This document shows, piece by piece, positions 21,586-57,521 of a stretch of DNA of 64,000 bases. Location: the NCBI RefSeq assembly GCF_921293095.1, contig NC_060251.1, forward strand, positions 93,606,566 through 93,670,565, in the 5' to 3' direction. Each line of letters starts with the position of its first letter. Position 1 is the stretch's first letter. The position numbers and the translations under genes were made by a program. Under the pieces are notes generated by a model. That model saw nothing but the letters and a program-made list of their open reading frames with translations, was not told the origin of the DNA and made no database searches. This DNA is from Ischnura elegans. Taxonomy: Eukaryota > Arthropoda > Insecta > Odonata > Coenagrionidae.

Positions 21586-21744
21586 AATTTAATATTCATA
21601 ATAGAATATAAATGTATCATTACCATACGATTACGTCCCTGAGAACACAAATTGTAACCAGTGATTTTGAAACCCAGAAAAAATACTAAAATTGAACGTT
21701 AATGAAATGGAAAACCTTGTTGTATTCCAGCAATTATTTTTTAA

Positions 21745-21786
21745 GGTACGACAAGTTTCGACGCAGCGGCGTCGTACTCACGTACC
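21745..21786 (-). ncRNA. Hammerhead-ribozyme-like motif (left arm)
   Basis: Read on the minus strand: GGTAC, G, TGAGTA, C, GACGC-CGCT-GCGTC (5-bp stem), GAAAC, TT, GTC, then GTACC. GGTAC and GTACC would pair as stem I, the GACGC/GCGTC hairpin as stem II, GAAA is the invariant core box, and GTC is a standard cleavage triplet after a minimal stem III. The CTGANGA box is degenerate. Likely an inactive relic. Confidence 0.5.
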
Positions 21787-21822
21787 TGAGAATGGCGCCG
21801 CTGTGTTGGAACTAGTCCTACC
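21782..21822 (+). ncRNA. Hammerhead-ribozyme-like motif (right arm)
   Basis: GTAC, CTGAGAA, T, GGCGCCGCTGTGTT, GGAAC, TA, GTC, CTACC. Same order as the left arm but more degenerate (the GAAAC box reads GGAAC). Confidence 0.4.
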
Positions 21823-22139
21823 AAAAATAAATTGGAGGAATACAACAAGGTTTTACATTTCATTAACGCTATGATGAACTTCCACAAACCTAAGCCTGAG
21901 AAGATATAAATAAATTAAAATTGAATCAACGCACTTTAAATTTACAGAATAGCAACCATATTATAAACCTCTTGATGCAACAATTTTTCCGTCAATACAT
22001 AGGAAAAAATCATTCTTAGTGTTTGAGGAGCTTGACGCCACTACCTGAACATATGGCGGTGAAATTCACAGGAAATGCTACGGGAAAAGAATGACCGGAT
22101 CGGCAATTGTTCCACGGATCTTTGCAAGAAGATTTCTGG

Positions 22140-22722
22140 GGGATCAAGGCAAGAAGAGTGCTGGATTCCCACCCAGTTGGTCCGGGTTTAAATCCCGGCG
22201 GTGGCAGAGATTTTTCAGAAACTCCGTGGTTGAGTGCCTTAAGAAGGACACTTCACCATCCGTCCGATGGGACATTAACCCGTGGTCCTACTTGGCACCC
22301 TTAGTCAGAAGTAGGCTAATATCGACGCCAGGTTTCTCTCCAACATTTCTTTCTTTACTCTTCCCTGATGGCGTTGATGGCCTCTGCTGTCGGTCGCTTC
22401 ATACAAATACACCAAGATTATTTTTTGGGTTTTCCTATCTTTGCGTTTTCCTGCAGTGGGTTTTTTCGCTGAAAGACACTACACCCTTATCGTTATGTTT
22501 TTTCCCACAAACAGAAATCTTTTTTCCACAAAATTTCCACATACAGTTGTTCATATTTTTGACATTTCACAAATATTGTATATTGTATATCCTTTATATT
22601 GTAAACGTTTGTCTACTATTTTTTAATATGTTTGCATTGACGCTATGGAGGGGTTAGGAGGAAGAGGGGACTTCTTAGTCTCAACCTCGCCCGAATAAAG
22701 GCATTTTATTATTATTATTATT
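22140..22722 (+). mobile_element. SINE-2 (tRNA-derived, long body, ATT tail)
   Basis: The head has CCACCCAGTTGGTCCGGG and a B-box-like GGGTTTAAATCCCGGCGG (22184-22201), typical of a tRNA-derived pol III promoter. A body of about 480 bp ends in CCGAATAAAGGCATTTTA and then an (ATT)n tail. Plus-strand frames such as 22091-22657 only read through it. Confidence 0.7.
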
Positions 22723-22979
22723 TTATACATATTTTCACAGCATTTTTGATGGTTTTATGCGAGGTACGGGTATCACCAAGTACTCTCGTCTTTTTACTCT
22801 GTGTTGAAAAATTTTCTGACACTCCGGCAAGTATTTAAAATTGCTGCTTTTTGTAGTGTAATAAACAAGTTTTTCGGCAGTCCAATAGTTTGAAGACCTT
22901 GATGGAGTGAATGAGGCACTACTCCTGTGGCGGAGAAAATGATAGGTATTATGTGTACTTTATCTGATTTCCACAATCT
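22709..22979 (-). mobile_element. LINE-G fragment (R2/R4/Dong-like RT C-terminus)
   Basis: A minus-strand LINE end with its (TAA)n tail in the same (TTA/TAA) run that ends SINE-2 on the plus strand, so the two retroposons are tail-to-tail. The 5' break abuts a (TTA)n(TCA)n microsatellite at 22980. Confidence 0.55.
22794..22976 (-). pseudogene. LINE-G RT C-terminal ORF (60 codons)
   Basis: Reads MWKSDKVHIIPIIFSATGVV, then LHQGLQTIGLPKNLFITLQK and AAILNTCRSVRKFF. The pattern 'W....V.IIP...SATG..P..L...L...GL..N....QKA.IL.TC..VR.FL' is the well-known C-terminal signature of R2/R4-type retrotransposon polyproteins. Only this end is present. Confidence 0.65.
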
Positions 22980-23020
22980 TTATTATTATTATTATTATTA
23001 TTATTATCATCATCATCATC
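22980..23020. repeat. (TTA)n(TCA)n compound microsatellite
   Basis: About nine ATT units followed by five ATC units. Confidence 0.95.
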
Positions 23021-23039
23021 TTATAATTTTACATTTATA

Positions 23040-24352
23040 ACTATCTTTTTGGTCAGTACTAATCAAAACTACGCAATTCAAAGCACTGTAGAGTCATTAT
23101 AACCATTATTGATAAAAAGTTGACTTTAAATTATCACAATAAAACCATACCTCGCTAAAACTGTAGCTACGTTTCATTTCGAGATGTTTGTAGGTAATCA
23201 TATCCAACCCTGAATTTTCCCATTTTTTCCTCAATTATTTCTCCCAATCCCATTTATTTATTCCTCAATCACAAAACATAATTCTTACAGCATGGTGACA
23301 TTTATGGAGCCCTGACTGATTATTCGTTTGAGGTCTTACCGAAATTTAATTAAACTTGGTCATAAATTGCTACTAGCGTAAATAAAGTGTTTTAAAGATG
23401 TAAAACGAAAAGAGGATGGCAGCCACAAGAGACTCACAGGCCGCGCGTAAGGCTTGAAGTGCTTGCACCATAGGGTAGTTTCCTTCATCAAAGAAAACGA
23501 AAGGCATTGATTGCGATTAGTTATCAACCATTAGTGTATTCATGATATACAAATTATTTGGTTTTAGAAATCCCAGTTTAGACGAATGGCAATGGTCAAT
23601 TTTAACCTCATTTGAAAAAGACCAGATTGGCGCCCATGATATGCCACTCCACGTGACGTCGCAGGGACATAGTTTCTATACGAGAAGATAGCAGTTTTAC
23701 ATCGGCTGAGATTACCAATGCATGCATGAGGCAAAGACTTCAGGGAAACATGCCTTAATAATCACCTATTAAAACTGCCCAAGGTCGGAAGGTTTCCTTC
23801 GTTTAATATGGTATTAATAATCCTTATTTAAGCCAAGCGCTACCTGCTAGCAGGGTACTCCGCTACCTCGCCCCAAGGTCACCTCACATGCGGCAGCGGG
23901 AGCCAGAACGACGTCACACGGAGTTTTCCTCGCATTCATACTTACCCATCGCCTTTTCGCGCGCTTGAAAATTTTCACTTTTCATTTAATCGCTAAAAAT
24001 AGATATCGTCATTTAAAAACCTAAAATCGTGAAATACGTACTCTCAGAGTAATAATCTTTCGATTTAGGCAATAAAAAAATAATAGGAAAACACCCTATT
24101 GAGAATGGATATCTTTCAGAGTGAAACGGAGAACATCATTTTAAAACCCCACTATATTTCCAGGTCCAACAGAAACGATGAATTAAGAGAGAGAGATATT
24201 CTGCCGAACGGGTAGGAATGGGAGTTCGTTTTTCTCCCAAAAATGAGGGACTCCAATAAAGTTGATGCGGAACTTCGCCAGATTATTTCCTTTTCATTCC
24301 CCGCTGCACGTCTATTGAGGTGGTTCGCCAGGTGGAATGTAGACATAGATTA
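23040..24352 (+). mobile_element. Chimeric repeat X, copy 1 (unknown 5' part plus LINE-A end), split by M copy 4
   Basis: 23040-23350 matches 26270-26570 (shared GTCATTATA, TTGACTTTAAATTA, ATTTCGAGATGTTTGTA and ATTCGTTTGAGGT landmarks). Both run straight into the LINE-A RT-end region (here 23355-23469: GCTACTAGCGT..., CAGGCCGCGCGTAAGGCTTG). The LINE-A part continues after the M element at 24101 (GAGAATGGATATCTTTCAG) to its tail at 24352. Confidence 0.7.
23470..24100 (+). mobile_element. M element, copy 4 (nested in LINE-A)
   Basis: Begins ATAGGGTAGTTTCCTTCATC and ends GGAAAACACCCTATT. It lies between LINE-A halves GCTTGCACC and TGAGAATGG. Comparison with the unbroken LINE-A string GCTTGAACAATTGAGAATGG suggests a 2-bp (AT) duplication or none. 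The CRE-like block reads CACGTGACGTCG here. Confidence 0.85.
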
Positions 24353-24929
24353 CTCCCTAATCCTTTCTAACCCAGAGCCACTTCAGGGAGAAATCAAATT
24401 TCAAGATTTTTCATTTTGAAAACTTGAAAATTTTCCATCAAATCATGTTTATCATGGTAGCTAAATATTTCATCGCTAAAATTTACACCACAAAATAATG
24501 TCTAGTTTTGATATTCCCCGAATAGGGCTGAAAATTTATACATTTTTGATATTGCTTAGAAGCAACACTGGGTTATTAAGGTTTAAGGCGGGCTAATTCC
24601 AATGTGACCAGAAGAGGTTCGTGTGTCTTCGAAAGTACGGATGGTATAAAAAAAATAAATAAAGTGTCTTCGTCCAACAGGAGTGAGGACTTCCAAGCAG
24701 GAAAATACGATTTGGACTTGGCTGGGTGGTGTGGGTCTTGGAGAGAAGAAGGCAATGCTTTTAAGTCGGGAATGCTCTTTTCTCGGGATGAGGTCGAGGT
24801 GGTTGACGGGAAGTACTAGGTGGAGTGAGATCCTTTCATTTCGGGGCTGGAGATGGGGAGGAAGGGGGCATTTCGAGGGGAGCGAGGCGCCAAACAGATA
24901 GTATTGATCACCATCATAAGTCAACAACC
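24353..24929. other. Unassigned DNA
   Basis: Several overlapping ORFs (24583-24957 minus, 24604-24901 plus) in a moderately GC-rich patch; none shows a recognised domain. Confidence 0.4.
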
Positions 24930-25150
24930 AATAGAAAGGTTTGTCGCAGCTCTCCATTCCTCTCTCCTATCCGCAAGCCTTTTCATAGCGACGCATTTCT
25001 TTAATTTTACATACTTTACAACCTGTACTGTGTAACTCATTCGGGAAAGTCCCATGCCCTTTTTCCCGTGCACCTATCCTTCTACAATTGTTTTCATCTG
25101 GGCATCATAACGTGGCCAACTAAGTTGTACCATCTCCTGGCGTGGTAGTA
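24930..25150 (-). mobile_element. LINE-E 3' relic
   Basis: Shares the CAACCAATAG..GGTTTGTCGCAGC, CTCTCCTATCCGCAAGCC and AACTCATTCGGGAAAGTCCC blocks with the LINE-E copies at 41.4 and 54.8 kb, which on the minus strand encode the G[KR]GRPR / YVAMKRLA..R.EWR.ASN C-terminus. Confidence 0.6.
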
Positions 25151-25459
25151 TTGATGAGAGTGAGATGAGAGTGAATTATCACCTCTGTTTTACTTTTAAA
25201 TCCTAAAATCTTCCCAAATCGGTGGAGGGCGGTTGATATGATCATCGTATATGATATTCAAAAGGAACTAAAAACATCAGGATTGGTACCAGGCACAGAT
25301 TTAATTATGCTATTTTACGTATTCTACGCCAGGATTTCAATTGATATGTACGCGAAAATATGTAAGATAGTAAATATTTAAATGAAATTATAGGCTTGGG
25401 GAGAAAGTTTCCGTTGACACATTTTATATTTTGAGAAAATACATAAAAATTGCTTACTT

Positions 25460-26014
25460 TTGCATCCATTTTTTCCTAGAATATCCATAAACGAAACCCC
25501 GTTTCGTCGCCGGCCGGTTCCCTCGATCCCCGTCCGCGCCGATAACGCCAGCCGTCTCCACCAGGGGACGTACGATCTAACACCCCCTCCTCATCTCCTC
25601 CCCGAGTGCGACCGACTACCGTGCAGGAAGGAAGCAGCCGACGTTTTGACGGCTTCACACCGCTTCTCTTGCAGTAGCAAGTGCATCGTGAAGTCTCCTT
25701 TCGCTCCTTTTATTTCGCAAAGAGCATCCGACGACGACGATGCTGCGGCTACTGTATCGGTCTTGTTTTCAACCCCCTACCCCCGCAGAACTCGTCGGGA
25801 GCTCGCAGAGTTTAGTCCCATCGCGATGGAGAGGAGATTTCAACCGATGCATATCCCTGTTTGGTGTCAGAGTGAAAAGCAATCGCCGGTCTTCGTCCCG
25901 AGATACGCCGGTTCTCACGAATCGATGCACGATAATTACTTCAAGACGACGTTTTCTAGAGGGGCAATGACCACAGAGCAGGGATTTTGGGAATTAACCA
26001 AGAAGTATTTATAA
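25460..26014 (+). CDS. Unrecognised 184-codon ORF in a CpG-rich block
   Basis: The GC/CpG-rich patch 25495-25960 carries the longest unassigned frame of the window. It opens at a TTG with no ATG near the start; the first in-frame ATG is only about 120 codons in (GCGATGGAGAGG, 25825). The translation is rich in R, P and S with a DDDD stretch and no recognised domain. GC-rich DNA yields long frames by chance, and a 60-codon frame is also open on the other strand. It may instead be a promoter/CpG island or 5' exon of a host gene. Confidence 0.2.
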   Translation: MHPFFPRISINETPFRRRPVPSIPVRADNASRLHQGTYDLTPPPHLLPECDRLPCRKEAADVLTASHRFSCSSKCIVKSPFAPFISQRASDDDDAAATVSVLFSTPYPRRTRRELAEFSPIAMERRFQPMHIPVWCQSEKQSPVFVPRYAGSHESMHDNYFKTTFSRGAMTTEQGFWELTKKYL

Positions 26015-26269
26015 AAATATTTACAGATGGAAACTTAACACCGGTTCATAGAAAAATGGCAATAATTATCCTTAAGGCGGATTTTACGTGAGATTCCAGT
26101 AAACGTTCATTAATACAAAAAATTTGCGCGGAAAAACATGAAATTTACGCGAAAATTAGCTTAGGGATCGGTCGAATACGAATAATCGGAAAAATTAGCG
26201 TGAAAACTTGGAACTCGCAGTCTCGTGATCATTTGTTTTCAACCAAGAATATTTCTTTGGCTTTCCTAT
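26015..26269. other. Unassigned AT-rich DNA
   Basis: No gene or repeat recognised. Confidence 0.4.
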
Positions 26270-26965
26270 CTTATGCTTGTAAATTTTTAAATATTGCTTT
26301 CATTGGTACCTACTTATCGAAACAGCCCAATTAAAAGCTCTATAGTGTCATTATATCCATTGCAAATTAAAAATTGACTTTAAATTACGTCAGTAAAATA
26401 CTAATGGCAACCATGCTAATGCTGTAAATGCGAATTATTTCGAGATGTTTGTAATTATTCCTATCCCTCATTGATCTCCTTGATTTCTCCCTCAAATAGA
26501 AAATATAACCTTAACATCTTGGCAATATTTGTCATGTCCTGAATTCCTATTCGTTTGAGGTTTTGCAGAAATATTATTTAACTTCGTAAAAAAAAGGCTA
26601 CGGGTGAATACAAAGCGTTACACAGTTGTCAAACGACTTATGCTGGGAGCGGCAAGAAACTCGGAGGCTGCGCGCTGGGCTTAGATTACTTGAGCGGTTT
26701 AGAATTGATATCCTACTGAGCGACACGGAGAACATCATATAGGAACCCAAACATACATACAGATCCGACAGAAACGATAAATTAAGAGAGATATTTTTCC
26801 GAACGGATGGGTATGGGAGTTAGTTTTCCCCGCGAATAGTAAAGGACTTAATAAATGCTAGTCGTAATTTTGTTCGAGACTTTGCTATTTAAATGTAAAA
26901 GGCTGGTGTCCTAACACCCCCTGCCACACGCCTCTTCAGACGGCTTGCAGAGTAGTATGTAGATG
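26270..26965 (+). mobile_element. Chimeric repeat X, copy 2 (unknown 5' part plus LINE-A end)
   Basis: Uninterrupted version of the structure at 23040. The unknown 5' part (26270-26570) is followed by the LINE-A coding end (GGCTACGGGTGAATAC, GGAGGCTGCGCGCTGGGC) and the 3' UTR with CCTAACACCCCCTGCCACAC and tail GTAGTATGTAGATG at about 26965. Confidence 0.7.
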
Positions 26966-27164
26966 AATATTTGTTGATGAAGAAAATTGCTCTTATAAAA
27001 ATTGTAGTGTAACTGAATTAATTTGGAATGGCAACGTCTAACCGATCGAGGGAAAAACATTGCATTTAATCTTTAGCGGATATTATGAATAGATTATTTT
27101 TTGCCTGATGTCGCAGCTATCTTGAGAGAGCCAATTATTATTGTAAAGACTATCACATGGATAG

Positions 27165-27335
27165 GATAAGGGAGAAAGATTGCGGAACCGATAGATTTAA
27201 GATGACTTTTTCCGAGTACAATATGGGACCATAATAATAATGACAGTGCATGTATAAGATAGTTTGTCTAATTATTATTAGTAAGGTAAGCTCTGCATGG
27301 GTATTTTATAGCTTATTATATTTCTTTAAATCCTA
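27165..27335 (+). mobile_element. LINE-B fragment
   Basis: GCGGAACCGATAGATTTAAG matches the LINE-B block seen (minus) at 33.2 and 52.15 kb and (plus) at 62.57 kb; the following TCTGCATGGG block is also shared. Confidence 0.5.
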
Positions 27336-27364
27336 ACATTCTGCATGATTATTTGGTATATTAA

Positions 27365-27650
27365 TACTCATGCATGAATCTCCGCTCAATACTACCACGA
27401 GCGTTTCTTTTTTTATGTGTTAACGGCTGGTGTCACAACACCCTCCGATATATGCCTATGAGGCGGGTTTCGGGGTGGTATGTAGTTATAGAAAAGTTAC
27501 ACTTCATAGTATTGCAATCCCAAGATTGGTATTCTGCTCTCCTCTATTTTACCCTATCCAATATTTTACCTCCCTGAGGCTTTTCTTCCCCTTATCCCTC
27601 GTGATTTTTCCTAGGCCGCTTGCGGGTTGGTACGTAGATGAAAACTCAAG
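27365..27650 (+). mobile_element. LINE-A 3'-end fragments (two tails)
   Basis: Tail 1: GGCTGGTGTCACAACACCCT, then GGCGGGTTTCGGGGTGGTAT and GTAGTTATAG (to about 27490). Tail 2: GGCCGCTTGCGGGTTGGTAC then GTAGATG (27613-27640). Between them is C/T-rich sequence that may be LINE-E debris. Not coding. Confidence 0.55.
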
Positions 27651-28243
27651 AGTAAATACAAAAAAGAGAGCAAATACAACTTGAATGTCTTCAAACGGAG
27701 CACCACCAATATGTACATCAAACCCATCAACTTAGAGGAGCTTGTGGTTAGACTTTACATCGTAAAGTAGGCTAAAACGTCGATAAGTAGTTTTTGTTGA
27801 AACTCTGCAATTTTTGCATCAACAGGATATCTCTCCTGATATGTTGCTATAGTGTGGAATCTTTAAGAGCAGCTTAATTCAGACGCTGGGTTTCTCTATG
27901 CCTTTTCTTCCCTCATGGTGCAAAGGACCTCAAGCTTTGGGTCGAAATCTCTTAAGAAAATTTTTAATGGAGAAAAAGTACCATATTGGTAGATGATATA
28001 TTTTTTATCCCATTGAATCACTCCAATAGCGTGTAAGGATTATCAGGGGGAGGGCGACGTCATTGCATTAGTCCTAACATACCTTGAGTGTCTCTATGTT
28101 AACATGGAATTGTGTCTCATGCTTTGCATATTATTAGCGAATGGCAACCATTGCTGTGACTTTGGGCGACAAGAAAAATCATTCGTGGGATGATCAGTGG
28201 CCTTTCATTGGTAACTAAAGTTAACAATATTTGAATATTTGAA
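27651..28243. other. Unassigned DNA
   Basis: No gene or repeat recognised. Confidence 0.4.
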
Positions 28244-28733
28244 CAGTAAAACTCGTTTATAAATATCACGCATGTAGCGAAATCCCGCCTATAACGAGGT
28301 GAGTTATCGGTCCCTTGGACTTTCCTGTGATCGCCAATGTTAATTTGCCTTCATGTAACCAGTTCGGATGATACGAAACCCCCGCTATTATGAACTATTC
28401 TTTAGGGAATTATTTCCCCTTTTATGAAGAAATTACCTCAATCTTCGCTACTTAACCGTTCCATACCTTACTATCAGTTGCTCTTACGTGTGGCCATCAC
28501 CACATGTCAACTGTTGATCTTAAAATCCTTCCCTTAGCAACGGTTTGATGGGAAGGGTGGGACGATGATTAAATGCTATGGATCTGTTGCTTAAATAAAG
28601 ACGATTTACGAAGTATAAGCCGGCAATCCTGTAATGTAAAGGGCAAAATCCTTTATTATGGATACAACGAAATCCCGTTTATGACAAAACAGGACGATGG
28701 TCCCCTGAAATTCGTTATAAGCGAGTTTCACTG
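28244..28733. mobile_element. pogo/Tigger-like MITE (490 bp)
   Basis: The left end CAGTAAAACTCGTTTATAA and the reverse complement of the right end CAGTGAAACTCGCTTATAAC form inverted repeats of the known pogo-type consensus (CAGT.AAAC.TCG.TATAA). The right flank is TA as expected; the left flank is AA. Sub-terminal GATTTCG/CCC motifs repeat inside. No transposase remains. Confidence 0.75.
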
Positions 28734-28817
28734 TATTTCAATTTGTTATCGGATTAATTTTTGTCGCGAGCTCATTAATGAGTAAATTAGCCACGCCGCA
28801 GTATACATATGATGGGT

Positions 28818-29265
28818 ATCTACATCTACATCTACATAATACCCCGCAAGCCGCCTAAAAGGCGTGTGGCAGGGGGTGTTAGGACACGAGCCGTTTACAG
28901 CTAAAAAAAAAAATTAAGTGCTCAAACGAAGTTGGGACTAGCGTTTATTAAAGTCCTTTATGGTTCGGGGGAAAAATGAATTCGCATATCTATCCGTTCG
29001 GCAAAACATCTCTCTTAATTTATCACTTCTATCGGACCTGGAAATATAGTGTGGCTCTAATATTATGTTCTCTGTGTCGCTCTTAAAGATATCCATTCTC
29101 AATTGTTCAAGCAATCTAAGCCTTGCGCGCAGCCTCCGAGTCTCCAACGGCTCCCAGCCTAATTCGCTTAACATCTGGGTAACACTGTCTATGCGTTTAC
29201 CGAATAGGGTGCTAACTACCCGACCGATTCTACTTTTATTCTCGCTTCCTCCAAATACCATATCA
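28818..29265 (-). mobile_element. LINE-A copy (minus)
   Basis: Tail of repeated CATCTA units at 28818, then the 3' UTR (AATACCCCGCAAGCCGCCTA) and RT C-terminal coding region up to about 29265, where it is 5'-truncated. Confidence 0.85.
28938..29261 (-). pseudogene. LINE-A RT C-terminal fragment (107 codons)
   Basis: The longest intact version of the extreme C-terminus in the window: DSVTQMLSELGWEPLETRRL, then LRLLEQLRMDIFKSDTENI, HYISRSDRSDKLREMFCRTD and SFFPRTIKDFNKR before the stop. This is the standard ending of CR1/Jockey-type proteins. The first 20 or so codons (MVFGGSENKSRIGRVVS) include non-family sequence. Confidence 0.8.
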
Positions 29266-29329
29266 CACCTGCATTCATATTGTAACTTTTTACCCGATGC
29301 GATGGCTGGATTTTACTAGTACGGTCATT

Positions 29330-30104: not shown

Positions 30105-30542
30105 ATGCCATGAAGTCTGGTTTACCCATCGCTTCCCTTATTTCGTACATGGTCATGCCTTCAACATTTCCCACTTTTGTAACAGGACACTCTTTAATTC
30201 TAATATAATACTTAAATAATAAAAAAATACTTTATACTCAAAGAGAGCGAGCTAAATTTCACTTTTTCTCTTGTAAACCACTACGCCTTGCAAGAAATAC
30301 GGGTTAGTTATTATCAAAATTTTTAGTTTACTCACCAATTAATGGTTACCATTTGTTGATTAATATTGTGTTTGTGTCGTAAACTAGGAAAGACAAGGAA
30401 CAAGGAAAAACAAGGGTAGTGAACGAATATTTATTAAGATATTTCACCGATTAAGTAGGTTTGTTCGGAATATTTACGAAGTATTCTGGCAGTCTCCCCT
30501 CCCTTCACATCGACATCCCTCTATCCCCCATCCTATCTCTTT
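30105..30542. other. Unassigned AT-rich DNA
   Basis: No gene recognised. Confidence 0.4.
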
Positions 30543-31209
30543 AATAGGGTAGTTTCCTTCATCAAAGAAAACGAAAGGCATTGATTGTGATTCGTTACCC
30601 ACCATTAGTGTATTCATAATACACAAATTATTTGGTTTTAGATATACCGGTTTAGACGAATGGCAATGATCAATTTTATCCTCATTTGAAAAAGGCCAGA
30701 TTGGCGCCCATGCGATGCCACTCCACGTGACGTCACAGGGACCAAGTTTCTATACGAGTAGATAGGAGTTTTACATCGTCTGAGATTACCAATGCATGCA
30801 TGAGGCACAGAGCTCAGGGAAACATCTCTTAATAATCACTTATTAAAACTGTCTAAGGTCGGAAAGTTTTCTTCATTTGATAAGGTATTAATAATCTTTA
30901 TTTAAGCCAAGCGCTACCAGCTAGCTGGGTACTCTGCTACCTGCCAGCATCCTGCGTCGTATCAGCGCTCAAAGCCTCGCCCCAAGGTCACCTCACTTGC
31001 GGAAGCGGAAACCAGAACGACGTCACACGGAGTTTTCCCAGCATTCATACTTAGCCGTCGCGTTTTCGCGCGCTTGAAATTTTTCACTTTTCATTTAACC
31101 GCGAAAAATAGATATCGTCATTTAAAAATCTAAAAGCGTGAAACACGTACTCCAGGAGTAATAATCTTTCCATTTAGGCAATGAAAAAATAATAGGAAAC
31201 CACCCTATT
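30543..31209 (+). mobile_element. M element, copy 5 (full length)
   Basis: Full 667-bp copy from AATAGGGTAGTTTCCTTCAT to GGAAACCACCCTATT, with an intact CACGTGACGTCA block (30724-30735). It abuts LINE-D at 31211. Confidence 0.85.
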
Positions 31210-31210
31210 C

Positions 31211-32790: not shown

Positions 32791-32794
32791 ACGG

Positions 32795-34587: not shown

Positions 34588-34595
34588 GTCTAGGA

Positions 34596-34914: not shown

Positions 34915-35382
34915 CGATTCCCTACATGCTCCATGTAACTCCACCAAAACCACCTACCTACGGAACGAACAGAAGAGTAACATTGACGTTGGACATTTCA
35001 ACACTCTAAAATAAAATAAAGACACGTTCTACTTTCCACACTCATTTTAATATTCTGCACCGGTTTCGACGTGTTCTTCGTCATTTTCAAGCTAGACAGG
35101 CCACGAAAAGTGGTCGCAAAACATTTTTTTAAACTACGAAGTATTTTTATTCAGAAGTTATTATTTTGGCGAATATCATATTTAATGGTTGATGAACATT
35201 TAAAAAAAGAAACCATCATGACACAAAAATAATTTGGCAATGCAGCCATAGTTATACATACATGTATTCAAATGCTAAAATTCGTGTGCTCAAATTTTCG
35301 TACATAGATCGACAAATTTCGTTAGGAGTCATCCAGAGAGAAAAATAGCCACCAATGATTTTCGCTTGGAATGGCGGCATTA
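34915..35382. other. Unassigned DNA
   Basis: Holds only the weak motif at 35054-35094. Confidence 0.4.
35054..35094 (-). ncRNA. Hammerhead-like motif (weak)
   Basis: Minus strand: ATGACGA, A, GAACACGTC, GAAAC, CGGTGC. The stem is poor (two pairs) but the order of boxes and the spacer base match the other loci. Confidence 0.25.
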
Positions 35383-40122: not shown

Positions 40123-40249
40123 CCCACTGCCAGTTTTAACCGTTTTACGGTATTATCAGGTAACTCGATGCATAGGTGGTCGGGAATCCAAATGGCAATG
40201 GCAAACACAAAAAACTGTCAAAAAGCCATAACTTTGACCTTGTTTAGGA

Positions 40250-43277: not shown

Positions 43278-43930
43278 GTAAGTGCACCTTGTATATTTTT
43301 TTTCGCTTTAACTTATGGCCAACTGTAAAACCGTGAAAAAAACAATGGGACAATCTCCATATTAATCACTACAGACCGAAGCACGTTGCTTTCCATCTTA
43401 TGAACTCGGAAACCTACGCCAAGTCTCGTAATCTCCGCCATCAAGTTCCCACCAGCACCACTGTGCGACTGCCTAAATGGAAACGAAATATATTCCGTAG
43501 ACTAGGCTACCAATCTCCCCACTTCTCATGCATTATATGACCAAAATTGTTTGACTGCCTACCGTCATTCCCACGCATGCATGGAATAGATGGATTCCGA
43601 AGTCTAGTGTAATTACAATGGAATCCGGTGAGGTACATATTATAACTTGAACTTAATTACGCAGTGGAAAACTTAATGATGGTATTAGGATTATACCATC
43701 TACATTAATATCCGGTTTTCTCCGCGATTCTTGGCTTGTTAAGACGACTTAAGATATTACTAGATTCCTCCTCCTACCACTGATTTTTCCGTATCACCTT
43801 GTTTTTCTATTTTCTCATCGCCTCCCCAGTGTAATTATCTTTCCTACCCCTTTCTCAAGCCTGTCATATCCTACCCCACCTCTTCCTCAAATGGAAAAGG
43901 TAATGTTTTCATGTACTGTGATGCCTTGTA
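43278..43930. other. Intron-like AT-rich DNA
   Basis: No repeat recognised. Confidence 0.35.
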
Positions 43931-43963
43931 CCAGATGATGGCTCTGTCAGCCGAAACGCGTCT
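43931..43963 (+). ncRNA. Hammerhead-like motif
   Basis: CAGATGA (43932), T, GGCT-CTGTC-AGCC (perfect 4-bp stem), GAAAC (43953), GC, GTC. It differs from the CTGANGA box at one position and has the spacer T seen at other loci. Followed by TTTCGTATTGAAATAATTGT, an AT-rich tail. Confidence 0.45.
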
Positions 43964-44387
43964 TTCGTATTGAAATAATTGTGCATAACTGTAATTATAT
44001 TTTATTTTAATTTGTCGAATCTTCCACTTCATCACGTTTGAATGTGTTTCTTTGTATCTCTTGGTCAGTCCAAGCCAAAACTAATGAAGACATTTTTAAA
44101 GAACGGCTAAAGTCTTTGCCAGAGGATCAATTCAGTCGTCGACTTTAGTTTTGTCTGGAGAGTAAATTGTAACGTAATATTTTATTTTGCTATATCGTGG
44201 TGATGTTTAATATCTTTACTTTTAGCGAAAACTTTACTTCGCAGATGTAAATATTTGTATGTCACGGAAGAAGATATCAGTGTTAGGGATTCGAATAATT
44301 TCCCATGTAAATCATGCCCTTCGAACGTTGAGTTTAGAAGTAAATATTTATGTGTGTATTGGTTGATGAGTAAAATATTACTAATTT

Positions 44388-49639: not shown

Positions 49640-49820
49640 ATTATGGAACCTAGGTATCGTAGTAGTCTGCGCAGTGGTCCGAGAAGCCAAATGTCCGCGG
49701 TTAGATTCCCGGTCTAGGGTATTTTTTTCAATGGGAATTCACAAATGGATAACAAATAATAATTTGGATTGTTGGACAAAAAATAGTTTGGATAATATAA
49801 ATGAAATCATAGTGCCTTCC
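49640..49820 (+). mobile_element. tRNA-like SINE remnant
   Basis: GTCTGCGCAGTGGTCCGAGA resembles an A-box region and GCGGTTAGATTCCCGGTC a B box. An AT-rich body follows. Family not matched to SINE-1 or SINE-2. Confidence 0.45.
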
Positions 49821-50112
49821 TAAAAAAGGTAAAAATATTATCTAAGCACCTTACCGTAGTACTCATGACTTGCATAAGATTTTTCAAAACCCATTCTATG
49901 AACTCACTCCCAGTGTAGAAATTAACGACTCAGAAAATGGAGAGCCAGTTTTCGACTTTTTTCACTAGCCGCTTTGAGACTCAAATGAAAAAAAATCAAA
50001 AAATGCGGGCTCCTACTACATGTTTACATGTGTAAATAATTGATTCCACGTTGAAGATTGATATAATTTTAAGGAATTGGTCCAATCCTTGCCATTACTC
50101 CTCCATCTAAAT

Positions 50113-50270
50113 CGGTGCTGTAGTTGGGAAAAAAATTTAGGCGATACTCACCAAAAATTCCAACAGCTGAACATCTATTATACATCCTGCCGCGAAGGTA
50201 TTTTAACCAGTACGCTTATAACGAGCTTGGATTTTAGGGGGTACGCCGTACCGACCCAACTACAGCACTG
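50113..50270. mobile_element. hAT MITE with perfect 8-bp TSD (158 bp), inside repeat Y
   Basis: Ends CGGTGCTGTAGTTGGG and, reverse-complemented, CAGTGCTGTAGTTGGG. Flanked by ATCTAAAT at 50105-50112 and 50271-50278. Confidence 0.93.
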
Positions 50271-50278
50271 ATCTAAAT

Positions 50279-50425
50279 GCTTTCCTTCGTGGGGGAGAGT
50301 CCCTTCAAAGAGTCGCTCCACAACCGCTCTTGTTGAATGGAAAAAATATCCAGCATCCTCGCACTTAGAGTGGAATGTTTACGGGTGAACCGGTCCAGCC
50401 AATCATCTTGCAGAAACGGACGAGG
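50279..50425 (+). repeat. Dispersed repeat Y, copy 2
   Basis: GCTTTCCTTCGTGGGGGAGA, GTCCCTTCAAAGAGTCGCTC, then TTGTTGAATGG, ATATCCAGC and GGGTGAACCGGTCC. Its first part is repeated almost unchanged at 51523-51597. Confidence 0.7.
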
Positions 50426-50514
50426 AAAAGAAGGCGAAGGAATTGCATTTGGCAAAATAAAACGAGTAGAGTGGCTCGAATGAGTGCAAGGGTCACGCCC
50501 CTTTGTAGTGTCCA

Positions 50515-51082
50515 CTAGAAGAAATTAGGATTCGTCAAGCGTATTGTGGGAAGATTTTCGGACGAGAAAGTAAAAGAAAGGTGCTATTTCGCTCTCGTCC
50601 GACCGCACCTTGAATATGCAGCGAGTGTATGGGATCCAGTGCAGAAAGACTTAATCCGCGAGCTGAATAAGATACAAAGGAAGGCTGCGCGTTTCGTCAA
50701 AAACCGCTACGGGCGTACTGACAGTGTTACCCAGATGTTAAGCGAATTAGGCTGGGAGCCGTTGGAGACTCGGAGGCTGCGCGCTAGGCTTAGATTGCTT
50801 GAACAATTAAGAATGGATATATTTAAGAGCGACACAGAGAACATAATCTTAGAGCCACACTATATTTCCAGGTCCGACAGAAGTTTTTAGCCGAACGGAT
50901 AGATATGGGAATTCGTTTTTCCCCCGAACAATAAAGGACTTTAATAAACGCTTGTCCCAACCTCGTTAGAGCACTTCTTTTTTTTTCTTCTTTTTTTTTA
51001 ATAGCTGTAAACGGCTGGTGTCCTAACACCCCCTGCCACACGCCTTTTAGGCGGCTTGCGGGGTATTATGTAGATGTAGATG
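50515..51082 (+). mobile_element. LINE-A copy, best-preserved in the window
   Basis: From GAAGAAATTAGGATTCGTCA to the tail GTAGATGTAGATGTAG, with a complete 3' UTR (GGCTGGTGTCCTAACACCCC, CTGCCACACGCCTTTTAGGC, GGCTTGCGGGGTATTATGTA) and an internal T-rich run. Confidence 0.88.
50546..50890 (+). pseudogene. LINE-A RT C-terminal fragment (114 codons)
   Basis: Reads RFSDEKVKERCYFALVRPHL, then EYAASVWDPVQKDLIRELNK, IQRKAARFVKNRYGRTDSVT and QMLSELGWEPLETRRLRARL, and on to FKSDTENIILEPHYISRSDR. It then stops because about 25 bp are missing compared with 28.9 kb (SDRS|DKLRE). No endonuclease or RT catalytic core. Confidence 0.85.
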
Positions 51083-51391
51083 TAGTCCCTCCCCTCATCC
51101 ATGAACGTTTTCAACCCTAACTCGGCTGCAGCTGGGGCCTGTGGAGTATTCCGTGTGCTCATCTACATCTACGAAATAGCGTGCAAGCCACCACCAAGGT
51201 GTGTAGCGGTGGGTGATTCCACGCCAGGAAATCAATCAGTGGGGTAAAAAGGAATTTCATTCGGGGAGGTCCAAAACCAGGGGGGGGGGGGGAAATTAAA
51301 AAAAAACAGAGCACCAAGTAGAGGGTTTTAAACTAATTTCAACACTTTTCACTATCGAAAAAACTTTATTTTTCAAATAAATCTTTTGTAA

Positions 51392-51626
51392 CTTTGAACG
51401 TAGGTTTTCGCAGCGAGAGGCATCGTTGCTAACGGCTTCCGGGTGCAGCTGCGTGTTGCCCTTTGTCGTGCAAGCTTTCGCGACCGTTGCAGGACGCATC
51501 ATCAGGCCCAACTACAGCACTAATCTAAATGCTTTCCTTCGTGGGGGAGAGTCCCTTCAACGAGTCGCTTCACAACCGCTCTTGTTGAATGGAAAACGTA
51601 GTTGAAACGTAGTTGATTTATTAGCC
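51392..51626 (-). mobile_element. 235-bp insertion with 11-bp TSD carrying a copied upstream segment
   Basis: ATCTTTTGTAA flanks it at 51381-51391 and 51627-51637. Left to right it holds 51392-51464 (unknown), a hammerhead-like motif (minus), a solo hAT end CCCAACTACAGCACTA plus the octamer ATCTAAAT (51507-51530), repeat-Y sequence to about 51597, and a doubled GTTGAAACGTA unit. An 11-bp duplication suits retroposition rather than hAT. The 90-bp block matches 50255-50345 with only a few differences. Confidence 0.8.
51465..51506 (-). ncRNA. Hammerhead-like motif with intact CTGATGA and GAAA boxes
   Basis: Minus strand: CTGATGA, T, GCGTCC-TGCAAC-GGTCGC (5 of 6 pairs), GAAA, GCTTGCACGAC. Both core boxes are perfect. 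Loop TGCAAC is identical to the 57.4-kb motif. Confidence 0.5.
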
Positions 51627-52180
51627 ATCTTTTGTAAATTCATGATTTTTCAAATGTTTTCTTTCCTTTCATGAATCAAAATGAATGTGTTTTTATTTTG
51701 CGGGGGAGATCCGGACCCCCCTCGCTACGGCACTGAAACCAGTACTCTTCTTAGCCTTAATCAGAAACGCGCTCGCTTACTGGACACAGGCCACACACAC
51801 ACACACAGTTTAACAACACGCAGACAGACCAGAAACTAGGAGAGTGCTAAAGGCGAAACATGCTACCATGAAAATAAAATTACTAGTTAGTAATTTAAAA
51901 ACGAAATGTTGGCGTAGTAAGTGATTCATGGCTAATGTTTGAGTTATACCACGAGTTAAAACATGATGGATGCGGTCTAACATAGGTACCAAAAAGTTCA
52001 TGCAGTTAGTAATGAATTCAATACAAATGTAATAAATTATGAACTACACATGCAGAGCCTATTTGAACAAGACCGAGTAAAGCTATCCTAGGGCTAAAAT
52101 TTCTGAAGTTTTTCTCAAGTCCCTAATTGCAAGAGGAAAAGACTGCATCTTAAATCTATCGGTTCTGCAGATATTTCCCC

Positions 52181-53453
52181 TATCTTTTCCCTGTGATTGT
52201 TTCAAACATTATTATTAGACCGTCGCAAAATAGCATGAGTATCAGGCAAAAAGTATGCCACTTAAAATTTCCGCAAAAGAATTAATTCAAAATTTTCCTT
52301 TTGATCTGCAACTTGATGGTGTTGGTTTGAACATTGAGAGATCGGTCACCAAGCTTTAACCCAGGGTTCTCGATAAAATCGAGAATTTTCAGTTCAATAC
52401 ATTTTCACTTCGGTTATTTCGTACATAAAAGTTTTTTTTACAATGAGGTCACATGAGTGCATACAGAGTAAGTTAACGGTTTTTCCGACTCGATAGAATG
52501 ATGGGAGATCTGTTGCTTTCCCGACGAATAGACTGAATACGATTATCTTGGGTTTGATTGAGCCGGGTGAGATTGTCCATTTTCTCCTCAGTTTCGACGC
52601 CCGAAATTTCCGTTTGATTTAACTTTTGTCTGATTCAACACATTAGGAGTAGTATTATATTTGACTTTCGTGTTCATACCTTGCTTAACAAAAAATTTAT
52701 TAGCGACTAAAGCGAATCCAAGGAGATTGGTATCGATGTAAGTATCACATGAATCGATCGGGTGGAATGGTTATCATTTGAAAAGTTTTCCTTTTTGATA
52801 ATAGTATTACCCTGAAAATTTCATTCATACAACTTGAATGGTTGCCAATTTATTCAAGATTGTGTGCTCCACAAAATAATGGCGACAATGATTTTTCATT
52901 GGCAGGATATTTTTCAGAATTTTATAATGAATTAGACAAGAGGCTTACGGGAAAATCAGGGTAGATCGCGAGGGTACGAGGTACCCTCAACGGTTTTTCC
53001 AGAAGATTCCAAATATTCATACCCCTAAGACTCAAGGCCGAAATCCGAAATTGAATCGTCATCTCAACAATGGAAAATCGAAAATCGTCATCAAGAAGTG
53101 ATGTTTGTGTCATGACCGTGGCCTGTATTTATACTTATTTTGCATTTGTGGTCTCTTTTCATTAATATGCGCCCACTTTCGTCCTCCAATGACTCAATCG
53201 TTCACAGCACTGGCGCCCAAGGGTTGCTCAGCGCGCACCTGGTGTCTCTATTAAAATTCCGGCTTTCCAATCGGCTTAAATTGCCACTGATGATATTTCG
53301 GTCCCAATAATTGGATGTAAATACATCAATCATTTTCATTTATTCATAAATCATCCACATTTTCTACATGCCTCCCAATTCTCGGCAATGGCCGACTTGG
53401 TCGGTTGGGCTAGTCGCAAGTAGCAACGATGCTCCTTGAGTTGCGTTTCTATG
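52181..53453. other. Unassigned AT-rich DNA
   Basis: No gene recognised. The first 100 bp may still belong to LINE-B. Confidence 0.4.
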
Positions 53454-53461
53454 GTGAGGCC

Positions 53462-53771
53462 CAGGGGCGCAGCTAGGAATTATTGCTAGGGGGGGGGGTT
53501 TCAGGAGCAACTTATACTGGAGTGCTTGGGGTATTGCATACCAGCCAAGGTAAGCGGGAGGTGCGGAGGCCTTCCGCCGGAAAAAAATTAAGATAAATGG
53601 TTCACAATGGTGATTTTTTTTTAAAGATTGGCCTTCTGAGGGATATTTTATTAATCCTCACACTATTCCTTAAGTAATATTAATCCAATTAAGTAAAATA
53701 GATTTAACTTGAAATTTCTGTGAGCTCTGGGGGGGGGGGGTTTATCCCCCAAGCTCCTCGCTGCGCCACTG
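53462..53771. mobile_element. hAT-MITE1, copy 3 (310 bp, opposite orientation)
   Basis: Ends CAGGGGCGCAGCTAGG and, reverse-complemented, CAGTGGCGCAGCGAGG. Flanks GTGAGGCC and GTGAGGTC, a 7/8 TSD. The interior near 53640-53740 is the reverse complement of copies 1 and 2. Confidence 0.92.
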
Positions 53772-53928
53772 GTGAGGTCAGTCTCCCCGATATACACCTT
53801 TCCGCTACCCCGTGGCACACGGTAGACTCCTGTTGTCTTGAGCCCGATTGGGTTCTTTGCTCATGCGTGGAAGTTTCGAATTTTGGGGAAAAGTTTGTGG
53901 ATTGTTACGAACATATATCCCTCTTATT

Positions 53929-54160
53929 CATGGGCGTACTCAGGATGGAAACTAGGGGGGAGGGGGCAAGCCATGGTTGTTCAAGTTGTAGGTAAGATTT
54001 TAGCATGGAAGAGGTGAATGAAATCAACATTTTAAGGAAACTGTAACAGCTCTTTATTAGCTTTTAAAATTGTTTACTTGAAAAAATATTATTTTCCTTA
54101 AAGACATTTGCGATTTTTGCTTCTAGGGGGGACAGCTGCCCCTCGCTGGCTACGCCCATG
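53929..54160. mobile_element. hAT-MITE3 (232 bp)
   Basis: Ends CATGGGCGTACTCAGG and, reverse-complemented, CATGGGCGTAGCCAGC. Flanks CTCTTATT and CTCTTATA, a 7/8 TSD. AT-rich interior. Confidence 0.85.
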
Positions 54161-54354
54161 CTCTTATACGATCATATATGCCTCGCAAGGACTATCGTGA
54201 TTTTTACGAAGGTGGTGGACATCTTTTGGCAGGATACGCTTTGGCCAACGGCTTCTCCCTATCGTTTCATAACGATCTCAGTTTTTTTCATTCAGGTGAC
54301 GCCACCAGGTGGAAACCCTGTGCTTAGCGGTGATGAAAATTGATTCTAGACTGA

Positions 54355-54660
54355 GGTCCCTTGTCTCGGTTTTCCCCCGTGCGTCCAGAGCACGGTATCG
54401 ACGCGTTCTGTTAGTGCGGTCGATAAACAAGTGAAAAGCAGGGAAACACGAAACCGTGTTCTGAGCAAAATGGTGCCCACGCTCTGACTTAAAGCGTTAG
54501 TGCATTTAGAAAGCGCGTAAATTTGATATTGGTGACTCGAACAATGCGTTTTGAAAATATGTATCGCCGATATCTAGTGCATTGAGGAAGTAAAAGTGAA
54601 AATTGCGTTTTGAACTGGGAGAGTAGGAGGAATACGAATCTCTTCATTCAGAAAGTGAGT
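54355..54660 (+). other. CpG-richer block with possible donor
   Basis: More CpG than its surroundings (GTATCGACGCGTTCTGTTAG), ending in AGAAA|GTGAGT at about 54653. Could be a non-coding exon; not supported otherwise. Confidence 0.2.
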
Positions 54661-54934
54661 TGTCATTCGTTTTTACCTAATTCATGGTAACAATCATTCA
54701 AATGAAAACTGTTTGATCAATGTATAATTTCTCTGCGAACTTCATTATTTTTCAACAATCATAAGCTTGGTTTGACGCAGCTCTCCATTCCGTTCTCCTA
54801 TCCGCTTGCTTTTTCATGCCGACTTATTTCTTGTATTTTACGCCTGACCAGTATAACTCATTTGGGGCCGTCCCTTGCCCTTCTTTCCCGTCCACCTGTC
54901 CTTCGATGACTGTTTTCATCATGCCACATGCAGT

Positions 54935-55380
54935 ATGCAAAGAGTGTTTATGATGAGGAAGAGTATTTATACAGTCGATGGTACTTGGTCACAAAATTTA
55001 TAAAAGAGGCCATTTCAAGCATCAGTTTAAATCATTGGTAATTTATTTAAAAAAATATAAGTTTGAATACTTTACCTCCATCACTAGTAATTTACTTAAA
55101 AAAATATACGTTTGAATACTTTACCTGCATTACTAATAGTATTATACACTTTGGTATACCTATGTGTGTGGGCAGGAAAATTTCCCAACTTTGGTCAAAA
55201 ACTTGGCATTCATTTCCTGGAACGTGCATAGGTCACAAGGTTTGGGAAATTTTAACTGAATCGGAGAGGAATGGTTTTAAAATTTTACTTTGCGTTGAGT
55301 TCGCGTGGAATAATTTCATTTTTAATGAAATTTCGACATGGATTGGCAAATATTTTTCTACCTCTCCACTTTGAGAGGGG
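54935..55380. other. Insertion within LINE-E, unclassified
   Basis: AT-rich, with a 103-codon chance-like frame (55063-55374) and an imperfect 49-bp tandem duplication. No clear terminal repeats or TSD were found. Confidence 0.5.
55039..55137. repeat. Tandem duplication of a 49-bp unit
   Basis: TAATTTATTTAAAAAAATAT and TAATTTACTTAAAAAAATAT start the two units (55039, 55088); each ends GAATACTTTACCTSCAT. Confidence 0.9.
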
Positions 55381-55570
55381 TATTATGTGGCTAAGTCTGC
55401 TTCTTATGTTTTTTAGATGACTTCTCTTTTCTCCCACTCTTCTTAGGACTTCCTCGTTACTTACTCGGTCGATCCATTTTATCATCATCATTCTTCGGTA
55501 CCATCTCATTTCGAATGCGTACACTATTGTCTTTCGTGTATCTTTCAACGTCCTAGCTTGGATCGCACGG

Positions 55571-57181
55571 AGAAACATGCCCCTTATGTATAATCTGATG
55601 AATTATTGCCGCCATGCCTGTGCTTTCTGTCCAGTCATGAAATAGGTCATTATATTCATTGTTAGTAAGGTTTTCATCAACCCCTAAAGAAACTTGTGTG
55701 TGTTGAAGTATTGAATTATTTTTTATTTAAATATTTTACTGTTTGTTCTGAGGTGTTTCGGGGAATGAAGAAATTAATTATTTTTTACCTGAATGAATCA
55801 TTAATGGTTGTACTGTTCTGTCAATGTTCGTCATTTTTAATAGAATTGTACTGACGAGAATATTTTTTCACATTAGAGTAGGGAGATTGTTTTTCCAGCA
55901 CCCGGTTGCGAGCTAAGTTTGTACTGAAGTGGTGGAGGATAATCCAGCGGCATTACAAACCGTTTATAAATGGTGTTAAAATACTAGTACGTGGAGGTTA
56001 ACATGTTATTTTCAGAGTGAGCACATGTGTTATGTAGATATGCTTCTACATAAGTTGCAATGGTCCAGTGGCAGATACTTGATATGGATATTTTGCTTCA
56101 AGAAGATGTATTTACTCTTCAGTCATGTTTCAGAGTTTGCATCGCTCGTTTATTTTTTATCATATCGTTTCATCGACTGATTTATATTGTAAACCTCTCT
56201 GAAGAAGTAAGCCAAAGTGACAGAATTGATCTGTGGCTGTTACCTCCATTTCCTACTGTGATAATTACAATCGCTTTGTATATATGGCATGCCTTTAATT
56301 ATTAATCCATTTTTGAAACCTTATTGTTTATTATAATAATTAGTCGTTTATTGGCATTGGTTTATTTTTTCTGGAAATCCATTGAAACTATGTATCCTAC
56401 AAGAAAAATCTGTGGTGAGGATAACTTCCAAGAAATCAAGGCTGCTTTTTTTATAAAATGAATGCAGTATTTACTACAACAAATACTTCTACAATGCAGT
56501 TTTCTAATGAATCAAGTGGAAATACGATTACTAAAAAAAAAACTTCATACAATATTATTAAGTAAATGGTGGAAGTTGATAGTTTTTTATCAAATCTTTC
56601 GATTGCCAAAAGCTAGTTCCCCTCGGTATAATGGTAAATAGGTTAGTTTACTCTGAATAGATATTTATAATTTGTATTAATTAACGATAGCTTTATCAAC
56701 CACATTCTATGGCAAATATCACCATTATATTTTTCTCTCCACTCGTCAAATGCGCGACCAACGGTTAGAAAGTATTAACAGCCAGCGAAATTTCCCTTGC
56801 AAACGCCACGTCTTACTTAGCGATGCAGTGGTCCAAAATTTTCTATTCTCCCGTTGGAATCATACAGAGACCGACGTAAAGAGGAATACAAGTAAAAAGT
56901 CATCTCTTTTACGATTAGAGATGACCTTTTTCGATGAAACTGTGTGGTACTCCGTATCGGGGGCAGTTCTCCAATGGTTGCCATGAATTCCATCACAGTG
57001 GTTTGTGCAGAGAAAAGCAAATGCAGGCAAAGCTTTCCAAGTCTTGAGTATCCTAGAGCACCCGGCAACAGGGAAAACTCGCGGCCAATCGGAGCTCATA
57101 ACTCAAAGGTACTGTAGTTTAAAATGGTGACCTACGCATCGCTGGTGATGTTGATGGAGACTATCGCGGGGTGGTGCAGCT
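55571..57181. other. Unassigned AT-rich DNA
   Basis: No gene recognised. ORFs at 56060-56305, 56750-56986 and 56817-57099 have no motif. Confidence 0.4.
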
Positions 57182-57260
57182 TGCGTAGCAAGGTTTTTCG
57201 GGTTGACCTCCGCGTCGTTTCATCTTCATGACGACAGTTTCGCCGGCGTTGCAGCTAGCG

Positions 57261-57478
57261 TCTTCATACGAGAGGCTATCGAAATAGCGAAAACATCCAC
57301 TTTCAACAGGGAGGACAGCCATTCGCTCTCAAACACCTGGAAGAGACTCTTACCCAAACGGACCGATCAGAACGCACCTAGCCCAAACCAAGGCCTATAT
57401 AAGACGGGCAAAAAACCTGCATCAAACACTTCGTATCTGAAGACGCTAGCTGCAACCCCGGCGAAACTGTCGTCATGA
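57261..57478 (+). pseudogene. Penelope-type polyprotein C-terminus fragment
   Basis: The frame VFIREAIEIAKTSTFNREDS, then HSLSNTWKRLLPKRTDQ, follows the pattern '.REAIEI.K....FNRED...LS..W..LL' at the end of many GIY-YIG-bearing Penelope-like polyproteins. RT and most of the nuclease domain are absent. The frame runs on through the hammerhead-like region to TGA at 57476-57478. Confidence 0.5.
57437..57471 (+). ncRNA. Hammerhead-like motif (right arm; mirrored in left arm)
   Basis: CTGAAGA (57437-57443), C, GCTAGC-TGCAAC-CCCGGC, GAAAC (57463-57467), T, GTC. The stem has mismatches; the mirrored left-arm copy has one fewer (GCTAGC/GCCGGC). Behind the motif lies GTCATGAAGATGAAACGACG. Confidence 0.5.
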
Positions 57479-57521
57479 AGATGAAACGACGCGGAGGTCA
57501 ACCCGAAAACCTTGCTACGCA

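Follow-up and report, generated by a model that had tools for sequence, protein, structure and literature searches.

Minimal hammerhead ribozymes of Penelope-like elements (PLEs) are already known from thousands of copies in animal genomes (PMC7761336, PMC6155905). As described by Cervera and de la Pena in 2014 and by Lunse, Weinberg and Breaker in 2017 (via PMC7761336, PMC6155905, PMC6466107, and PMC11167929), these are dispersed type I hammerheads that lie in the pseudo-long terminal repeat (pseudo-LTR) at the start of the open reading frame (ORF), have an absent or very short palindromic stem III, and adopt a dimer architecture. The PLEs themselves carry inverted, mostly head-to-head pseudo-LTRs, which include the first ORF codons, and an optional tail (PMC3846280). 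Here, a 64,000-nucleotide stretch of the Ischnura elegans genome (the window; assembly GCF_921293095.1, contig NC_060251.1, positions 93,606,566 to 93,670,565, forward strand) is analyzed, in which five loci near 21.74, 35.09, 43.93, 51.51, and 57.44 kb carry a hammerhead-like core with one extra nucleotide before stem II. In all of the above respects the motif appears to be the same as the PLE hammerheads.

The plus-strand hammerhead of chrysanthemum chlorotic mottle viroid (CChMVd) is a full-size ribozyme. Like the loci in the window, it has an extra nucleotide between A9 and G10.1 (De la Pena and Flores 2001, via PMC3705267), referred to below as base 10. In the viroid this base is A, a U in its place makes cleavage 3–4 times faster, and C or G is detrimental (PMC3705267); unlike the viroid, the loci here have mainly U or C, in another host and with another function. 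Perreault et al. 2011 (PMC3088659) report core variants that resemble some of those below, including the swap of C3-G8 to U3-A8, a known compensatory covariation, and other rare natural core changes, whereas the insertions reported there are at A6a, U13a, and 2a/2b; the matches rejected in that study were chiefly mutant hammerheads of repeated elements. Base 10 is present here wherever the motif is clearly readable, a possible difference from the published PLE hammerheads; the frequent position-4 variants and U3-A8 cores seen here are unmentioned for PLEs in the literature compared. A literature search with the motif letters gave nothing related by title among the matches listed.

Hammerhead-like loci of the window

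At all five loci the order is box, one base, stem II, and GAAA, and the shared extra base is confirmed in the sequence and by genome copies. The loci are best explained, with a probability of roughly 0.9, as terminal (pseudo-LTR) remnants of several PLE families that carry a minimal type I hammerhead with a palindromic stem III and an extra base 10. The initial annotation had proposed an undescribed variant or a structured element resembling a hammerhead; the offset is real and hammerhead-like, and the claim of an undescribed variant was overstated, an insertion at this place being known from CChMVd and the loci being the ends of elements already known to carry minimal hammerheads. When the window was searched with a covariance model, R1, for which only copies from other parts of the host genome were used, the five loci came out on top (E 4.6e-8 to 2.7e-5), followed by 63457-63501, 57227-57273, 21780-21823, and 40143-40165; R1 includes genome relatives found via the five loci, and its E-values measure family membership, not independent discovery.

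The 21.7-kb relic (21744..21787, minus strand; R1 36.8 bits, E 4.6e-8) has its box at 21781 and reads GTAC / GTGAGTA / c / GACGC-cgct-GCGTC / GAA ACTTGT C / GTAC, and a better copy of its family, L101, reads GTAC CTGAGTA t GACGC cgct GCGTC GAA ACTAGT C GTAC. It forms the right arm of a palindromic relic that is 82% self-complementary (21697..21868; self-match of 21697-21868 with 21868-21697), the left arm of which holds a second, inverted hammerhead with t before stem II (21780..21823, plus strand; 16.0 bits, E 0.046). This palindrome may be read as two inverted PLE ends. The 35.09-kb relic (35053..35096, minus strand; 28.9 bits, E 8.8e-6, with family copies) has its box at 35090 and reads TTGAAAA (U3, A8) / t / GACG-aagaaca-CGTC / GAA ACCGGT, without the position-17 base that better family copies have. 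Its stem had been described as only about two pairs; GACG/CGTC is in fact 4 bp, and 5 bp pair in better copies. The 43.93-kb relic (43926..43972, plus strand; 30.1 bits, E 3.8e-6, with family copies) has its box at 43932 and reads CAGATGA (U4A) / t / GGCT-ctgtc-AGCC / GAA ACGCGT C.

The 51.5-kb hammerhead (51466..51511, minus strand; 28.5 bits, E 1.1e-5), with its box at 51505, reads CTGATGA / t / GCGTCC-tgcaac-GGTCGC / GAA AGCT T. Family matches place it in the 3' end of a PLE copy (51390..51511, minus strand) that comprises the hammerhead and about the first 36 ORF codons and ends abruptly just upstream of the hammerhead. The 57.4-kb relic (57431..57477, plus strand; 27.2 bits, E 2.7e-5), with its box at 57437, reads CTGAAGA / c / GCTAGC-tgcaac-CCCGGC / GAA ACTGT C and has an inverted twin with its box at 57267 (57227..57273, minus strand; 16.1 bits, E 0.045), the two lying in an inverted repeat of 96% identity (57182-57271 / 57431-57521). 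The 51.5- and 57.4-kb loci do share the loop TGCAAC, as first noted, and are not unrelated: their PLE families have homologous endonucleases. A further degenerate hammerhead, absent from the initial annotation, has its box at 63463 (63457..63501, plus strand; 16.5 bits, E 0.033), reads CAGACGA / t / GTGAC-tac-GTTAT / GAA ACCCGGGT C, and overlaps an inverted repeat (63368-63437 / 63481-63553). The R1 match at 40143-40165 (minus strand; 14.6 bits, E 0.12) is weak and partial.

A strict search of the window (box and stem each with at most one mismatch, GAAAC) was compared with 40 shuffles. With a gap of one base between box and stem II, 5 sites were found against a shuffle mean of 0.57 (maximum 2), compared with 1 versus 0.62 at gap 0, 1 versus 0.75 at gap 2, and 0 versus 0.80 at gap 3. 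The five sites are the 43.93- and 57.44-kb loci of the initial annotation, 57267 (minus), 63463 (plus), and 59286 (minus), the last probably a chance match. When two box mismatches were allowed, the gap-1 count was not significant (10 versus 5.47, maximum 11). At loose settings with plain GAAA, gap 1 (53 versus 30.9, maximum 42) and gap 3 (50 versus 32.1, maximum 47) both exceeded the shuffles. The in-window statistics are modest, and gap 1 is preferred over 0, 2, and 3 at strict settings only. Without a stem criterion, sites with at most one box mismatch and a palindromic tail of at least 6 paired over at least 2 bp at gap 1 in 5/5 cases and at gap 0 in 0/5; of these five, 55748 forms a longer helix at gap 2, 35084 reads the 35.09-kb locus in a false, overlapping register, and 63465 (minus) faces 63463 (plus) on the opposite strand.

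Base 10 and stem pairing across the genome

The looser window count, which does not rise above shuffles, is what a chance likeness among five unrelated loci would predict. The host genome (1.72 Gb, with the window on contig C6) leaves that explanation a negligible probability. A pattern indifferent to the stem matched 3492 times, against 9 for the reversed control. Among the 100 matching strings listed, pairing was best at gap 1 in 52 and at gap 0 in none; in the other 48 the best register is equivalent to gap 1 if the box is placed three bases further upstream, and the upstream box was found in all 10 loci of the second kind examined (L018, L020, L107, L109, L112, L113, L116–L118, and L121). 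With flanks included, a helix of at least 3 bp formed at gap 1 in 28 of 29 arms at the places examined, the exception being the minus arm of L115. Each of the five loci has family copies, with at least 122 matches for the 57.4-kb family, 57 for 51.5 kb, 85 for 21.7 kb, 43 for 43.93 kb, and 64 for 35.09 kb, all lower bounds that count the window's own copy and, for inverted pairs, each arm. In a further family, termed GTCGC, 746 exact copies have T10, and the same string with T10 deleted occurs 0 times. Chance and alignment artefact are ruled out by these genome counts (3492 versus 9; 746 versus 0) together with the gap-0 test. Viral contigs gave 17 matches with helices of at most 3 bp at gap 0 or 1, and a second search gave 6, with a 4-bp helix at gap 1 in two contigs related to each other; all were taken as chance or coding matches.

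The extra base recurs within the individual families. In the 57.4-kb family a hammerhead lies upstream at 36/38 GAAACTGTCG sites (two being the window's own), and the remaining two, L031 plus and L047 plus, are unrelated sequence with no hammerhead upstream. All 39/39 sites of the 51.5-kb family found by box and GAAAGCTT (one being the window's) read gap 1. Helices of at least 3 bp occur in the 35.09-kb family at gap 1 in 13/28 sites, 8 of the 28 lying in one tandem array, L145, at gap 2 in 1/28, and at gap 0 in none; in the 43.93-kb family they occur in 6/14 sites, every one at gap 1. The old 21.7-kb family has a helix at gap 1 in 5/15 sites, at gap 3 in two, and at gap 0 in none. The identity of base 10 follows the family: by patterns that fix gap 1, it is T in 41/41 sites of the 51.5-kb family, and in the 57.4-kb family it is C in 28, T in 3, A in 2, and G in 1 of 34. 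The array L145 (C2:28324370-28324760) is itself a series of repeats, each roughly 48 bp long, that come from a portion of a 35.09-type end, GAAACCGGT included.

Stem pairing was assessed on 18 aligned representatives against 500 shuffles, with rows chosen for clear fit and shuffles that ignore relatedness. At gap 1, 84.0% of the cells of stems I and II are paired versus 65.8% in shuffles, covariation is 0.566 versus 0.211, and 30 cells are changed on both sides versus 10.9, with 0/500 shuffles as high in each case; the compensatory changes called for as a check on the motif are thus found. Pairing is 91.7% in stem II and 76.4% in stem I, G-U pairs occur among the copies, and sliding the stem partners lowers pairing to 22–49%. 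A canonical stem II that starts directly after A9 was not found: at gap 0, stem II is 27.8% paired versus 28.5% shuffled, and its first pair forms in 0/18. Stem III is perfectly self-complementary in ACCGGT, ACGCGT, AGCT, ACTAGT, and ACCCGGGT, and imperfect in ACTGT (a central mismatch) and in the ACTTGT of the 21.74-kb window copy. Upon cofolding of 8 representatives, L021 and L102 gave a stem II per strand and a shared palindromic stem III, and monomer or dimer folding missed the hammerhead in the other 6 in favor of other structures.

Penelope-like element setting

The PLE setting, pseudo-LTRs flanking an ORF with reverse transcriptase (RT) and GIY-YIG endonuclease, is seen for the 51.5-kb, 57.4-kb, and GTCGC families. 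In L169 and L170, two direct hammerheads 2.62 kb apart surround an 837-codon ORF, the first Met of which lies inside the core, and the L169 ORF matches RVT_1 above the cut-off (E 2.5e-12). The Pfam GIY-YIG match is below the cut-off (0.003, L021), and five endonuclease fragments from three families all have the motif residues G-x-Y, Y-x-G-Q, R, R, and EH unchanged. L168 was rejected as a complete element; its two hammerheads enclose no open frame longer than 157 codons, and by eye it appears to be two separate insertions. No PLE ORF was recognized in the window, and none was linked to the 21.7-, 35.09-, 43.93-, and 63.46-kb families; for the first three a PLE origin is suggested by the shared hammerhead type and, for 21.7 and 35.09 kb, by inverted pairs.

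A sample chosen by RT homology and not by hammerhead (20 of 151 RT matches, mostly with long open frames) shows, in 12/20, a hammerhead on the sense strand, always at the same place close to where the ORF begins; each forms 4–7 exact base pairs at gap 1 and none at gap 0. Together, the 12 represent six distinct sequences. The offset accordingly survives in better copies, with base 10 kept in 12/12 of these hammerheads as in the 746 GTCGC copies. A hammerhead on the other strand only was seen in 3/20; the antisense strand holds inverted PLE copies and is no clean control. Candidates not counted as hammerheads, on account of their place and tail, were CAGAAGA at 588 in the related copies L174, L175, and L182 (3 bp at gap 0), TTGAGAA at 590 in the related copies L184–L186 (4 bp at gap 1), and, with 1–3 bp, TTGAGAA at 596 (L174, L175, L182, and L187), L188 at 35, and L191 at 580. 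A cluster at C19:59911524-59924634 consists of six PLE copies, each with an open frame of 868 codons; they are spaced mostly by about 2.53 kb, and the first four lie on one strand and the next two on the opposite one. A hammerhead in this cluster, at L171, reads CTGAAGA c GGAAGC aggatg GCTTCC GAAAC.

The core CNGAUGAUG contains two in-frame AUGs, A6-U7-G8 and A9-U10-G10.1; for the 51.5-kb family, full-length relatives show that the latter encodes the second Met of the ORF. We infer a start codon at the core AUG, and only infer it because the frame upstream of the core is also open for a stretch. At 33/41 sites of the 51.5-kb family, 35 codons can be read in the A9 frame before it closes, and the 41 copies diverge 108 nt after A9 (where the majority share, which has already dropped once at 78 nt, falls from 0.72 to 0.43), close to the point 111–118 nt into the ORF at which reverse transcription of Anolis PAc starts (PMC11167929). 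All 39/39 non-self scored places start matching at query position 134 or 136, which is the hammerhead, the other side of the matches being limited by the end of the query itself. Retention of base 10 solely because it supplies the T in a start codon is ruled out as a general cause by C at this position in the 57.4-kb family and in 12/12 RT-chosen hammerheads, and is contradicted by L021 of the GTCGC family, in which the A9 frame closes after 10 codons.

Neighboring hammerheads within 5 kb, among the first listed places, have the orientation '-+' in 25/25, 20/20, and 24/26 cases. Such pairs could suggest that the motif is nothing but a hairpin in the DNA, or the terminal inverted repeat of small palindromic elements like miniature inverted-repeat transposable elements, and is kept for DNA reasons and not as a ribozyme; good amplification of families with a damaged core (886 exact copies of one such string) is also consistent with this. 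Against it stand the conservation of most of the core across families while the stems change compensatorily, the G-U pairs, the change of C3-G8 to U3-A8, and the direct orientation of motifs flanking RT/GIY-YIG ORFs; a hairpin element and nothing more is ruled out by these ORFs, and we consider the explanation very improbable. Under the PLE explanation, the outward-facing pairs are a consequence of the inverted ends that these elements often leave on insertion.

Core variants, activity, and significance

The general core (C3-A9, G12-A14, A15.1, U16.1, and H17) is present in the 51.5- and 57.44-kb window copies and in the 51.5-kb, 57.4-kb, and GTCGC families, which keep C3-A6, G8, A9, G12-A14, and H17. 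It is not present in the window copies at 21.74, 35.09, and 43.93 kb, nor in the 43.93-kb family (A4) or the 35.09-kb family, in which the U3-A8 swap occurs in 12/13 clear copies. A second case of U3-A8 is TTGATAA, found in 4/12 sense hammerheads of the RT-chosen PLEs by a pattern that explicitly included the swap.

A PLE would be transcribed with a hammerhead at each end, as the direct copies in the DNA of L169 and L170 suggest, and short stems I and II, for which pairing and covariation are seen, are predicted to fold in each copy. By analogy to published PLE hammerheads, stem III, too short alone, would form between two copies via its palindrome, and the RNA would be cut after position 17. 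Base 10 may be bulged out and tolerated, and where it is U it may accelerate cleavage, as it does in CChMVd. In the 51.5-kb family, A9-U10-G10.1 overlaps the start of the RT-endonuclease ORF and may double as its AUG.

Several points weigh against the identification of the loci as PLE hammerheads. The five loci are putative ribozymes, the cleavage activity itself being a prediction. The Rfam hammerhead models gave no match in the window, and none at E <=10 in 20000-58500; RF00163 gave 0 matches in the genome and also 0 in its 14 control genomes, which makes this last result uninformative. No hammerhead was seen in 5/20 RT-chosen PLEs, in which a looser box gave only odd matches, such as 4 bp at gap 0 antisense in L178 and 8 bp at gap 2 in L181. 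The pairing test used shuffles blind to kinship and rows picked for fit, the number of pairs changed on both sides is not extreme (6 versus 4.6, reached by 34/500), and stem I, which is short, is weak alone (51/72 cells, with 146/5000 re-dealings as high). Position 4 is A in 14/14 sites of the 43.93-kb family, the CAGATGATGATACGCTGTATCGAAACCGGTC family (U4 to A) has 886 exact copies compared with 32 with U4, and position 4 is C in full-length L169 (CCGATGA), L170 having CTGATGA at both ends. C at base 10, detrimental in the viroid, is common (28/34 in the 57.4-kb family and all 12 RT-chosen sense hammerheads).

These variants bear on a related and rather unlikely possibility, that the motifs descend from active PLE ribozymes, were inactivated by base 10 and other changes, and persist in the ORF-start region of PLE RNA, which the PLE protein may bind. 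Position-4 variants are common in this genome and should impair cleavage, and because of this the spread of such copies may not need cleavage; moreover, Anolis PLE hammerhead mutants insert normally in vitro, and no RNA ends are reported at the site (PMC11167929). On the other hand, the Anolis hammerhead cleaves when PLE protein is present (PMC11167929), U at position 10 speeds a viroid hammerhead 3–4-fold (PMC3705267), and the conserved core positions are retained in the 51.5-kb, 57.4-kb, and GTCGC families.

The window also contains other repeats. Fragments at 11317-11845, 28820-29189, 50518-51085, and 60420-60804 are presumably the ORF end of a non-LTR retrotransposon; a Pfam search with three of their ORFs gave nothing. 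One fragment sits between 90-nt direct repeats (50255-50344 and 51507-51596), the second of which adjoins the 51.5-kb hammerhead. A second repeat family, of up to about 670 bp, 83–89% alike, and on both strands, occupies 10289-10939, 17530-17939, 20919-21591, 23470-24100, and 30541-31210.

Base 10 is present in every family clearly read in this genome, whatever the stem sequence, and is U in some and C in others. Motifs of the form CTGANGA-N-stem-CGAAAC are also common in the genomes of other animals. We suggest tentatively, at somewhat less than even odds, that base 10 is a fixed, defining trait of the whole class of PLE hammerheads, that ribozyme folding and translation start compete in some families, and that the CAGANGA (U4A) families represent a further core variant. 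Because these loci go unreported by the Rfam hammerhead models, this hammerhead type may be undercounted. Should base 10 prove general to PLE hammerheads, what was an exception in a viroid in 2001 would be the rule for a very abundant ribozyme population. The CAGANGA families would be a core variant spread in nearly 900 exact copies, and in the AUG-overlap families one RNA would be either ribozyme or messenger. The role of PLE hammerheads has been termed a mystery (PMC7761336), and the overlap of core and ORF start would, if base 10 is general, offer a testable switch between cleavage and translation that bears on this role.

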